Shown: positions 53,983 to 58,836 of the stretch, piece after piece
How positions within the stretch are numbered: the stretch's first letter is position 1
How the letters are laid out: each line of letters opens with the position of its first letter
Made by a program: the position numbers and the translations under genes
The notes under the pieces: model-generated
What the model saw: the letters and a program-made list of their open reading frames with translations, nothing else
Database searches by the model: none
What the model was told of the DNA's origin: nothing
Assembly (NCBI RefSeq): GCF_900446255.1
Contig: NZ_UIGI01000001.1
Span: 4,118,763 to 4,182,762, forward strand
Direction: 5' to 3'
Origin: Buttiauxella agrestis
GTDB taxonomy: Bacteria > Pseudomonadota > Gammaproteobacteria > Enterobacterales > Enterobacteriaceae
Length of the DNA: 64,000 nt

Positions 53983-54021
53983 AGTTTTACTTCTAATGAT
54001 TTTTGATAATGAAGTTTAACT
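53983..54021 (-). promoter_or_regulatory. Candidate operator pair upstream of nanA
   Basis: Two 9-bp odd palindromes, AGTTTTACT (53983-53991) and AGTTTAACT (54013-54021), have centres 30 bp apart. The second sits in AATGAAGTTTAACTC (54008-54022), which recurs exactly upstream of nanE. A promoter-like TTGCAT-N17-TAATAT lies just upstream on the minus strand, so a bound repressor would block transcription. Confidence 0.65.
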
Positions 54022-54114
54022 CTATATTAAGGCGACAAATGGAGTGATGCAACCATCACCACGGACGGAAAAGGCTAAATACGTTGAACTGTGATCAATG
54101 CCGCTAATGCGACA

Positions 54115-54996
54115 TTATTTTGCGATATTCAGTGCGTCCATCGTGCGCAATTTGCTTTCGCGAGCCTGCTCCGGGGCGGCCTGAACCAACAAGGTATAGA
54201 GTAAATCGAGCACAAAGAGCTGCGCCGTTTTGGTGCCAATCGAGTCACCTTGCAGCATGCCCTGGCGGTTGCCGTTAATCAGACTAAAGTCTGCAACATC
54301 GATTAATGGAGAGCCAAGATTATGGGTCAGCGCGACTGTGGTGGCTCCCGCCTCTCTGGCGAGTTTGAGCGCGTGGACAGTTTCTGGAGAAGTCCCGGTG
54401 TGGCTTATCGCAATCGCGACATCACCGGCTTTTAATAACGTGGCCTGCATATACATGAAGTGGTTATTGGTGACGGCATCGACCCGTAATCCAATGCGCA
54501 TCAGCTTATGTTTCATGTCTTCTGCGGTGATCCCCGAAGAACCGACACCGAAGATATATACCGAGTTGCTGGTACGCAGCGCGTTAACGACCTGAATAAC
54601 CTGGTTCATATCCAGCAGATTAAGGGTTTCAGATAACACATTGTTTATCGTGCTTTGCAGTTTTAAACCGATGGTGTGCGCATCGTCAGACTCACTGATT
54701 TCGCCATCCAGCAACGGGCTGTTGTTGTACGGTTCCGTCGTGGCAAGTTCAATGGCCAGGTCCATTTTAAAGTCCTGGAACCCCTTATAACCCAGGGTGC
54801 GGCAAAAGCGGATAACGGTGGCCTCGCCCGCCTGCGTTTCACGCGAAAGCTCGGCGATGGAAAGCTGAGTGACCTGCTGCGGAGAAGTCAGAATGAACTG
54901 CGCGATACGCTGGGAAACGCGCGTCAGGCTATTTTGCATCGCCCCTAATGTGTCGAGGATTTTTCCAGGTTTAAGGCGTAGCGCTTGAGGCTCCAT
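54115..54996 (-). CDS. RpiR-family regulator of the sialic acid cluster
   Basis: The 293-residue product starts MEPQALRLKPGKILDTLGAM, with AGGAAA before the ATG. An N-terminal RpiR helix-turn-helix (QLSIAELSRETQAGEATVIRFCRTLGYKGFQDFK) is followed by a SIS sugar-phosphate isomerase domain (VYIFGVGSSGITAEDMKHKLMRIG, AISHTGTSPETVHALKLAREAGA). RpiR-type regulators (SiaR, NanR of Vibrio) control sialic acid genes and respond to GlcN-6-P or ManNAc-6-P. It lies between nanA and nanQ, separated from nanQ by a terminator. Confidence 0.88.
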   Translation of the reverse strand: MEPQALRLKPGKILDTLGAMQNSLTRVSQRIAQFILTSPQQVTQLSIAELSRETQAGEATVIRFCRTLGYKGFQDFKMDLAIELATTEPYNNSPLLDGEISESDDAHTIGLKLQSTINNVLSETLNLLDMNQVIQVVNALRTSNSVYIFGVGSSGITAEDMKHKLMRIGLRVDAVTNNHFMYMQATLLKAGDVAIAISHTGTSPETVHALKLAREAGATTVALTHNLGSPLIDVADFSLINGNRQGMLQGDSIGTKTAQLFVLDLLYTLLVQAAPEQARESKLRTMDALNIAK

Positions 54997-55077
54997 AAAT
55001 TTCCTGCTCTGTAGGGCGAAAGGTGGCAAAAAGCCTGCAATATCGAATGGGTCAAAGCGTAGCAAGTCTGTGGCGGT

Positions 55078-55120
55078 AAAAAAAGCGCGATGTCAGCATA
55101 GGGGGTATGCCGCATCGCGC
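55078..55120 (-). terminator. Terminator of the nanE-K-siaT-nanQ operon
   Basis: On the minus strand GCGCGATG, a 20-base loop and CATCGCGC are followed by TTTTTTT. It lies 34 bases after nanQ and separates that operon from the RpiR regulator gene. Confidence 0.7.
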
Positions 55121-55154
55121 CGTCAAAGAAAAACAGGTTTGTTAACTCATTTTA

Positions 55155-55640
55155 TTATGACGTAAAACTTTCGCTCCCTAAGCAACGGTAGCTCACCTTA
55201 ATCACGACTTTGCTGATCGCTTGTGTCGTTTCGCTGATACAACCCGGCTTGTGTGGCTCGCCCGGCAGAAATATGGCGAACATTCCCGGCTGCAAGTGCA
55301 ATGTCTGACGCGGCGAAACCGCATCACACAGCAGGTAATCGTCGTCTTCATGATAAATATCGGGCGCGATTGCTGCCCCGAGCGGGCCAAAATCAATCCG
55401 TTCCTGGCCGCTGAGTAACACCTGAATATCAAAATACTCACGATGCTGCTCGTACCGCTTACTCTCCGGCTCGGCTGTCTCAAATGTCATGACATTCATA
55501 AAGATATCGTCACCGTCTATCTCATGACGCCCGGCACTGAGCGTTTCCGGACGCAGTGCCAGCGCCTGTTTAATGATGGCCAGCAGTTGGGGGGCAATCC
55601 CGCTCTGCGCTCTGAGTTCTGTCACTTTCCCTAAAATCAT
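55155..55640 (-). CDS. nanQ: N-acetylneuraminate anomerase NanQ (YhcH)
   Basis: NanQ speeds interconversion of sialic acid anomers so that the lyase gets its open-chain substrate. The 161-residue product is a YhcH/YjgK/YiaL (DUF386) cupin. Family blocks are [40 protein letters not shown] and [15 protein letters not shown], with metal-binding Glu and His. It starts 11 bases after siaT and is the last gene of its operon. Confidence 0.93.
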
Positions 55641-57130: not shown

Positions 57131-57200
57131 GATGACACTTTCCTGCTTATGTTTATTGTAGGGATGAGGGTGCTTTCTGAATTTGATGTTTTATAAATGT

Positions 57201-58076
57201 TCAGACAGCGAGATGTTCAGACCAGAGGGCGGCACCCATTAACCCTGCATCGTGTTGATAATGCGCGGAGTAAACGGGAACCCGGAATGCCTGCGGAAGC
57301 TGTGCGAGCTGATGTTCAACCTGCTGGCGATAACCCTCCGCCAGACCCACACTTCCGCCGAGCACGATACATTCGGTGTCGAGTAGCGCTTTAAGATTGG
57401 CGATTAACTGGCAGATGGCCTGCGCCGAGCGCGCGACTCGCTGTTGTGCCTGTAAGTTGCCCGAATGAGCCTGAGCAAAAATTTCACGGGCATTTCTACC
57501 CTCGAGTTCTTGAGTGGCTCCCGCCGCGATGGCACGCCCGGAAGCAATAGCTTCAACACAACCCACGCGCCCGCATCCACAACGTGGGCCATTCGGATCG
57601 GCCTGAATGTGGCCGATATGACCTGCAAAGGCATGTGGACCGATTAATAACTCGCCATTGATAACGATGCCGCCACCGACGCCGGTAGAAACGGTGATAA
57701 ACGTGACGTGCTTGAATTGTGCCGACAAATGACAATATTCAGCCCACGCGGCGGCTTGGGCATCGTTGAGCACAACGCACGGCAGGCCGGTATATTTTTC
57801 TACAATGGCCTGCAATGGGAAATGGTTCAGCCCGCCAAGGTTATCTGGGTTCAGCGCAGTGAGAATGCCCTTATCAATGATGCCGGTAGACGCCACAGCC
57901 ACACGCTGCGCTTTCCCTTGATAAGCCTCAACTAATTGCGCTAATGCCTGCTCCAGCGCTTGTGGTTCCGCGTTCGCAGGCGTTGGGATTTCCATGCGCT
58001 GCGAGATTTCCAGGGCTGAGTTAATGAGTGCCGCAGCCAGTTTGGTGCCGCCGATATCAATGGCAAGTGTGTTCAT
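57201..58076 (-). CDS. nanK: N-acetylmannosamine kinase
   Basis: NanK phosphorylates ManNAc to ManNAc-6-P. The 291-residue ROK-family product starts [18 protein letters not shown]. It has the ROK zinc motif [17 protein letters not shown] and catalytic Asp in [18 protein letters not shown] precedes the ATG at 58076; the ORF extension to 58133 overlaps nanE and is rejected. It lies 13 bases after nanE. Confidence 0.95.
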
Positions 58077-58089
58077 TGTTTTCTCCGGT

Positions 58090-58770
58090 TTAGCGCTTAA
58101 CGGCATCACTGAACCACTGGCAAATATGTTCAATACGCGTGATGGCAGAACCGACGGTCACAGCCCATGCACCGTGGTCGATAGCCTGGGCGGCCAGTTC
58201 AGGGGAGTTGTAGCGACCTTCTGCAATCACGCGGCAGCCTGCATTGCTCAGTTCAGACACCATCACCAGATCGGGTTCGTGTGGCGTCACCGCGCTAGTG
58301 TAGCCAGACATGGTAGTACCAATGATTTCAACACCTTGTTGCTGGCAATTCAGCCCCTCTTCAACTGTTGAGCTATCTGCCATCGCGAGTAAACCGTGGT
58401 GGTGAATACGCGCAATGAGTTCGTCGATAGCCACCGGGCGCGGGCGGAAAGTGGCATCAAACGCGATAATATCCGCCCCCGCTTTCGCGAGCGCATCCAC
58501 ATCCTGCAAGAAAGGCGTAATACGCACCGCCGAGTCTTCCAGGTCGCGTTTGATAATGCCGATGATGGGAACAGAAATCAGCGGGCGCACCGCATTAAGA
58601 TTTTCGATACCTTCAATGCGAACGGCGACCGCACCTGCATTCACCGCAGCCTGCGCCATCGCCGCCACAATTTCAGGGCGGTCCATCGGACTGCCTGGAA
58701 CTGGCTGGCAAGAGACAATAAGTCCGCCACATTCACGCACGCTGTTATCTAATTTTGCTAGTAGTGACAT
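58090..58770 (-). CDS. nanE: N-acetylmannosamine-6-phosphate 2-epimerase
   Basis: NanE converts ManNAc-6-P to GlcNAc-6-P, feeding NagA/NagB. The 226-residue TIM-barrel product has [15 protein letters not shown] at the N-terminus, the catalytic lysine region [18 protein letters not shown] and [11 protein letters not shown]. It is the first gene of nanE-nanK-siaT-nanQ. The upstream region holds an operator pair and a CRP-like site. Confidence 0.95.
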
Positions 58771-58797
58771 TCTGCTCCGCCTTTCACATCAAAATGA

Positions 58798-58836
58798 AGT
58801 TTAACTCCAAAAAAGAATAGCGGATGGAGTATTACT
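58798..58836 (-). promoter_or_regulatory. Candidate operator pair upstream of nanE
   Basis: AGTTTAACT (58798-58806) and AGTATTACT (58828-58836) are odd palindromes with centres 30 bp apart, the same spacing as upstream of nanA. The first lies in AATGAAGTTTAACTC (58793-58807), identical over 15 bases to the nanA site. Confidence 0.65.

Follow-up and report, generated by a model that had tools for sequence, protein, structure and literature searches.

Related systems

Regulators of the RpiR family often crystallise as tetramers (summarised in PMC12713135). A regulator of this family, of the SiaR/NanR type, is encoded in the sialic-acid (nan) cluster of Buttiauxella agrestis, within a stretch of 64,000 nucleotides of contig NZ_UIGI01000001.1 (positions 4,118,763 to 4,182,762) that we call the window. 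Here we describe two pairs of palindromic boxes, one before nanA and one before nanE, that are very probably operators of this protein. In both pairs the box centres are exactly 30 bp apart.

Several relatives are described in the accessible parts of the published reports. SiaR of Haemophilus influenzae leaves a footprint of 53 bp that overlaps a CRP site by 3 bp, and gives two shifted bands, for which the authors suggest several SiaR proteins and leave the exact cause open; glucosamine-6-phosphate (GlcN-6-P) is its co-activator (PMC2946308). The CRP site lies upstream of the regulator site, as does the CRP-like site at nanE in the window. Unlike in the window, two divergent operons share a single set of sites. 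NanR of Streptococcus pneumoniae is likewise an RpiR/SIS regulator of sialic-acid genes. According to a preprint, it is dimeric on one DNA site when effector is absent and tetrameric when it is present; the authors propose that the tetramer connects a full site with a degenerate half-site lying 23 bp downstream (PMC12713135). The pneumococcal site also has AGT/ACT half-sites, as we read them from the printed sequence. It differs from the window in that NanR acts there as an activator, on an 18-bp near-palindrome with touching half-sites, and in that the proposed partner is only a half-site.

RccR of Pseudomonas (PMC5489143), again an RpiR regulator, resembles the present case in its two palindromes at aceE, its apparent cooperativity and the location of its sites in the core promoter. 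Its half-sites (TGTAGT/ACTACA), the single 28-bp sites found elsewhere and its ligand, 2-keto-3-deoxy-6-phosphogluconate (KDPG), are different. NanR of Escherichia coli shares with the system studied here an enteric host, sialic acid and a repeated operator, but belongs to a different protein family (GntR) and recognises (GGTATA)3 repeats (PMC8012715). Among the openly accessible abstracts and passages searched, subscription journals lying outside the scope, none describes a 30-bp rule for NanR proteins of enteric bacteria. The murR-murQ operator of E. coli MurR contains a pair of adjacent inverted repeats, with CRP control in addition; sugar and sequence differ. Two-site RpiR regulators such as RccR and MurR are already known; the spacing rule described here is unusually strict and wide.

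Two box pairs in the nan cluster

Each region contains two 9-bp palindromes with a centre distance of 30 bp: AGTTTTACT (53983-53991) and AGTTTAACT (54013-54021) before nanA, and AGTTTAACT (58798-58806) and AGTATTACT (58828-58836) before nanE. The letters thus agree with the initial annotation, which had also noted a 15-base identity between the regions; this sequence, AATGAAGTTTAACTC, is present at 54008-54022 and 58793-58807. Most of it is made up by the box that covers the expected transcription start (start-site box), which has the same orientation at nanA and nanE. The informative unit, GRAGTNNNACTYC, is about 13 bp and longer than the 9-bp palindrome. The four boxes are:

53981 to 53993, minus strand: downstream (partner) box of nanA, GAAGTAAAACTCC on the coding strand, centre 53987, within the putative 5' leader
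54011 to 54023, minus strand: start-site box of nanA, AGAGTTAAACTTC, centre 54017
58796 to 58808, minus strand: start-site box of nanE, GGAGTTAAACTTC, centre 58802
58826 to 58838, minus strand: partner box of nanE, ATAGTAATACTCC, centre 58832, inside the spacer between the -35 and -10 elements, its first base being the last base of the -35 element

Single boxes are not enriched in the window, where the pattern AGTNNNACT has nine matches against a mean of 6.86 in shuffled sequence. The pairs exceed chance: only two pairs of matches lie less than 100 bp apart, both spaced 30, while 200 dinucleotide shuffles gave 15 pairs within 100 bp overall and none at 30. The four boxes are also the top four 13-mers of the window when scored with a 13-bp matrix, a ranking that is not independent because the matrix was built from the copies of the same boxes in Buttiauxella relatives. 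In the nearest genome (G001), the only pairs with up to two mismatches are the counterparts of the nanA and nanE pairs. At three mismatches 61 forward matches were found versus 277 with a reversed control pattern, and such pairs were therefore taken as noise. Three mismatches must be allowed before a third box shows up 30 bp past the pair (GTTGCATCACTCC at nanA, GCGGAGCAGAATG at nanE), and none is claimed; GCGGAGCAGAATG resembles a ribosome-binding site.

The GGAG ends of the boxes point inward at nanE and outward at nanA, and both boxes are oriented alike at nanT of Yersinia. This asymmetry of the half-sites follows no rule, which suggests that each box would bind a symmetric dimer.

Conservation of the spacing

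The loci of the best 80 of 155 relatives of the regulator were compared, 8 from Buttiauxella and 72 from other genera. Both pairs are spaced 30 in all seven Buttiauxella loci that hold nanA and nanE; in the eighth (L034) nanA is missing and nanE is incomplete. For the other genera we used a box matrix trained on the four distinct Buttiauxella boxes only, a very small set.

A scan of the 72 whole loci for spacings of 13-100 gave 186 pairs, with 79 at 30, 7 at 31, 3 at 27, 1 at 32, 2 at 33 and none at 28-29. The pairs at 30 occur in 44 loci, including 42 of the 44 from Enterobacterales and two of the four from Vibrionaceae. When pairs with an apparent ribosome-binding site are removed, 57 of 158 are at 30. 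These come from 41 of the 72 loci and fall into 17 genus groups, made up of 14 named genera, of which Klebsiella and Mixta were each split in two, and one metagenome-assembled genome. Column-permuted matrices with a correlation below 0.7 to the real one (143 of 150) gave on average 0.5 pairs at 30 and at most 17; the remaining 7 are near-copies of the real matrix and gave up to 81. An earlier control with 60 permutations had a mean of 2.1 and a maximum of 66, its high counts arising because some permutations nearly equal the real matrix.

The 117 regions upstream of nanE and nanA in other genera were scanned separately. A box of at least 9 bits was present in 71 (46 were dropped), forming 33 genus-by-gene groups, and 30 is the top partner spacing in 20 of these. 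Averaged over groups, the better partner score on either side is 1.58 at 30 and -9.76 elsewhere (standard deviation 1.64). In five of the 20 groups, nanE of Yersinia, Rahnella, Rouxiella, Mixta mediterraneensis and one metagenome-assembled genome, the partner falls, as we read it, on a likely ribosome-binding site; two Pasteurellaceae groups reach a score of just 1.5 bits. The Hafnia locus (L037) falls below threshold with a partner of 3.3 bits, which is still at 30. At nanE in loci L061-L079 (Yersinia, Rahnella and others), the apparent Shine-Dalgarno sequence coincides with a GGAG half-box located 30 bp downstream of the start-site box.

The spacing recurs at further promoters. Pairs at 30 bp precede the MFS-type nanT of Yersinia and Rahnella (family match for L061 and L074) and nanT of Serratia (L072, where the gene is assigned by protein likeness only). 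In Edwardsiella (L058) the pair precedes nanM, after which come a KdgM-type porin gene and an SSS transporter gene; in Klebsiella (L055) it precedes nanT-nanE-nanK. The Kluyvera pair at the same place overlaps a site resembling a ribosome-binding site. Shared descent accounts for the spacing within one promoter type, not between types. Conservation in orthologous clusters, to which the initial annotation had looked, is thus found across Enterobacterales and at several unlike sialic-acid promoters, and it supports the proposal that the boxes are operators of the adjacent RpiR/SIS regulator with a functional 30-bp spacing.

The pairs are two similar palindromes at a fixed, helically phased spacing, as in a double operator. 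The spacing had been likened to three helical turns, and it comes near, falling 1.5 bp short at 10.5 bp per turn. At nanA of Proteus and Vibrionaceae other spacings, 20 and 50, are found, each near whole helical turns. These promoters have a third box, at spacings of 20, 30-31 and 50-51 (about 6985-7040 in L047-L053, 5705-5755 in L084 and 5745-5796 in L108). In Moellerella, nanA (L056, 7040-7900) aligns as three pieces and may be disrupted in the assembly.

Promoters and the CRP-like site

Relative to the promoters, the elements of the two regions are arranged as follows.

54024 to 54029, minus strand: putative nanA -10 element TAATAT, read by eye, scanner without match
54047 to 54052, minus strand: putative nanA -35 element TTGCAT with a 17-bp spacer, read by eye, weak match to consensus, scanner without match
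58814 to 58819, minus strand: nanE -10 element TATTCT, from the promoter scanner, 9 of 12 consensus matches together with the -35 element
58838 to 58843, minus strand: nanE -35 element TTGAAA, from the promoter scanner
58861 to 58876, minus strand: CRP-like site TATGACTCCCTTCACA, its centre 66.5 bp upstream of the centre of the nanE start-site box and about -61.5 from the putative start

The scanner reports TTGAAA-18-TATTCT at nanE, a hit that is weak alone (shuffles average 0.4). Here the partner box occupies the -35/-10 spacer and the start-site box covers the expected start. At nanA the scanner finds no promoter. The nanA pair had been said to overlap the start of transcription, which holds for the promoter TTGCAT-17-TAATAT read by eye: the start-site box covers its expected start, with the partner in the leader, 30 bp downstream. 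The partner is therefore on opposite sides, upstream at nanE and downstream at nanA.

Among chosen representatives, TGA-N6-TCAC lies 65.5 or 66.5 bp upstream of the centre of the start-site box in 11 of 11 nanE regions, and a search of 14 nanA regions gave no match to it. A CRP-like site at a fixed distance, as in joint control by SiaR and CRP, is thus found at nanE. We take its position near -61.5 to be the classic class I CRP position.

Regulator and gene context

The genes follow the order nanE-nanK-SSS transporter-yhcH-nanR(RpiR)-nanA on the minus strand:

58090 to 58770, minus strand: nanE, epimerase of N-acetylmannosamine-6-phosphate (ManNAc-6-P), family match
57201 to 58079, minus strand: nanK, ManNAc kinase, family match
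55652 to 57130, minus strand: SSS-family transporter of the nanE operon, family match
55155 to 55640, minus strand: yhcH/nanQ, N-acetylneuraminate anomerase family, family match
54115 to 54999, minus strand: nanR/siaR-type RpiR regulator, presumed binder of the boxes, with HTH_6 (PF01418, E=1.1e-22) and SIS (PF01380, E=3.5e-20)
53075 to 53968, minus strand: nanA-like lyase, DHDPS family, family match

The regulator has the RpiR architecture, an HTH_6 domain followed by a SIS domain, and lies within a nan catabolic cluster in which a nanA-like gene, nanE, nanK, yhcH and a transporter adjoin it, the context of the SiaR/NanR subgroup. Its nearest relatives are from Buttiauxella (B. agrestis ATCC 33320 at 100%, or 99-100% by parts in a separate alignment), and it is 57-62% identical to SiaR-type relatives from Pasteurellaceae. 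The top solved structure, V. vulnificus NanR (4ivn, E=5.1e-35), is more distant than these. In 13 of 17 aligned proteins, among them the regulator of the window, the helix-turn-helix (HTH) stretch GEATxIRFCRTLGxKG is matched exactly. An RpiR-type nan regulator was found in 26 of the 295 genomes of the family sample.

The nanA-like lyase (53075-53968) falls below the NCBIfam cut-offs for NanA (158.5 against 281, 125.4 against 382). It shares only about 24-27% identity with the lyase encoded next to the related regulator in Pasteurellaceae (L081-L106, L120); one regulator clade is served by two distinct lyase clades. The cluster adjoins a repeat-rich autotransporter of 1290 amino acids (49162-53034). 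A LysR-type regulator (47939-48955) is closest to CitR, below the cut-off (192.4 against 400).

The H. influenzae footprint

The primer sequence published for H. influenzae (PMC2946308) matched five of 140 Pasteurellaceae genomes, three of them exactly. In one exact match (G358) the gene order is nanE-nanK-regulator-nanA, and the regulator of the window is 56% identical to its counterpart over residues 46-290. In four of the five genomes, a good 22-mer lies where the published distances put the CRP site. On the assumption that the footprint continues from the 3-bp overlap in the direction of nanE, it extends in these four from -61 to -9, with its midpoint at -35 and one box centred at -50; this box, with the half-site CACTTC, falls where the SiaR footprint maps. 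The centre of the CRP site is 19.5 bp from the nearest box, versus about 36 bp in Buttiauxella. It is suggestive that a partner at -20 would sit 30 bp away and make the footprint symmetric. Such a partner, sought by motif, was not found in the four loci, and a second box is not recognisable there, whereas the window has two clear ones. The fifth primer-matched locus (L119) has a 5.2-bit box exactly 30 bp on.

Proposed mechanism and alternatives

We consider it highly likely that each pair is a composite operator of the linked SiaR/NanR-type RpiR regulator, on which two dimers would be held on one face of the DNA by their SIS domains. The 30-bp spacing very probably matters, and we favour a tetramer bridging the pair as its reason.

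Read from sequence, spacing, conservation and gene context, the binding, stoichiometry, effector, repression and CRP action could be as follows. One HTH dimer would bind each 13-bp box, and the two dimers would lie on almost the same side of the helix at a distance of 30 bp, linked through the SIS domains as a tetramer or as touching dimers. The start-site box would be occupied at both promoters, with the partner 30 bp upstream (nanE) or downstream (nanA). With boxes in these positions, we propose that RNA polymerase would be excluded at both promoters. An amino-sugar phosphate derived from sialic acid would act as inducer by altering the complex; the candidates are GlcN-6-P, which acts on SiaR, and ManNAc-6-P, the effector of pneumococcal NanR. 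CRP bound near -61.5 would aid nanE.

Several observations weigh against this reading. A strict RAGTNNNACTY pair at 30 occurs in 5 of the 295 genomes (3 from the genus of G001), compared with 4 for three control spacings together; this survey was set aside as too strict outside Buttiauxella. Two AGTNNNACT boxes 30 bp apart are present in only 2 of 95 loci from other genera, both Photobacterium. A genome search for further pairs had been suggested in the initial annotation. Outside Buttiauxella few loci show the strict two-box form; the partner there is often degenerate, yet in register. In 13 of the 33 groups the top spacing is not 30 (Edwardsiella nanA 31, Photobacterium nanE 27, Vibrionaceae nanA 50-51 and five Pasteurellaceae groups, among others). 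In the upstream-region scan Yersinia nanA has no pair, and in the whole-locus scan the Edwardsiella ictaluri locus (L080) has none at 30. None of the 24 Pasteurellaceae loci has an above-threshold pair at 30, only 11 of them holding a nanE upstream region. The mapped footprint of the H. influenzae-type loci holds a single box, and the sequence 30 bp from it scores -9.4 bits. A box doubles as an apparent Shine-Dalgarno sequence in 22 of the 79 pairs at 30, and through shared descent the counts within a promoter type are not independent.

The 30-bp register may also arise from lateral contact between two NanR dimers, one on each box, without a single tetramer reaching across both; tetramers would then assemble at other places or need effector to form. 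We regard this as a serious candidate, if a less probable one. It fits pneumococcal NanR, a dimer on one site until effector is present (PMC12713135), and RccR, whose binding to two 15-bp sites at aceE appears cooperative (PMC5489143). The near-absolute spacing (79 pairs at 30, 7 at 31, none at 28-29) suits a rigid bridge equally well, and sequence cannot discriminate between the two.

A further explanation is that the start-site box is the sole NanR operator, its partner being kept for promoter elements or the Shine-Dalgarno sequence and the 30 bp being incidental. The nanE promoter gives it some substance. Over 11 regions, mean information is 1.63 bits in the start-site box and 1.28 in the partner, with 1.14 in the spacer and 0.91 in the flanks, and apparent ribosome-binding sites account for the 22 pairs mentioned above. 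In Buttiauxella sp. A111 (L034, 4230-4410), where no match for nanE, nanA or the SSS transporter was found, the nanE promoter and an intact start-site box precede an apparent short nanE remnant and nanK; the partner is still 30 bp off, with its left half lost, in this single case. The explanation is nevertheless improbable, with 57 pairs at 30 surviving the ribosome-binding-site filter, a spacing common to unlike promoters and a partner that flips sides between them. At nanA the partner is as conserved as the start-site box: in 14 chosen representatives both average 1.44 bits, against 0.97 in the spacer, where no promoter element is visible, and 0.76 in the flanks.

That a regulator other than the linked RpiR protein binds the boxes is very improbable: the link between box and protein comes from sequence, but 30-bp pairs lie near nanR in the 42 Enterobacterales loci (picked for nanR, and so without a contrast set), and the CACTTC box coincides with the mapped SiaR footprint.

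Implications

A broader view, which we put forward tentatively and with slightly more doubt than confidence, is that SiaR/NanR proteins of Gammaproteobacteria would use a fixed two-box ruler of 30 bp, a tetramer on two dimer sites, with 20- and 50-bp third-box variants in Proteus and Vibrionaceae. One site would be placed at the transcription start and the partner upstream or downstream as the promoter permits, and the same assembly may explain why H. influenzae SiaR leaves a 53-bp footprint and gives a double shift.

Various enteric bacteria carry an RpiR-type nan regulator, and not only the GntR-type NanR of E. coli. How an RpiR tetramer meets DNA is unsettled, and a fixed 30-bp code would give a defined DNA for crystals or imaging. 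The code would also predict the regulon, and it could explain, in a way open to test, why the SiaR footprint is so large.

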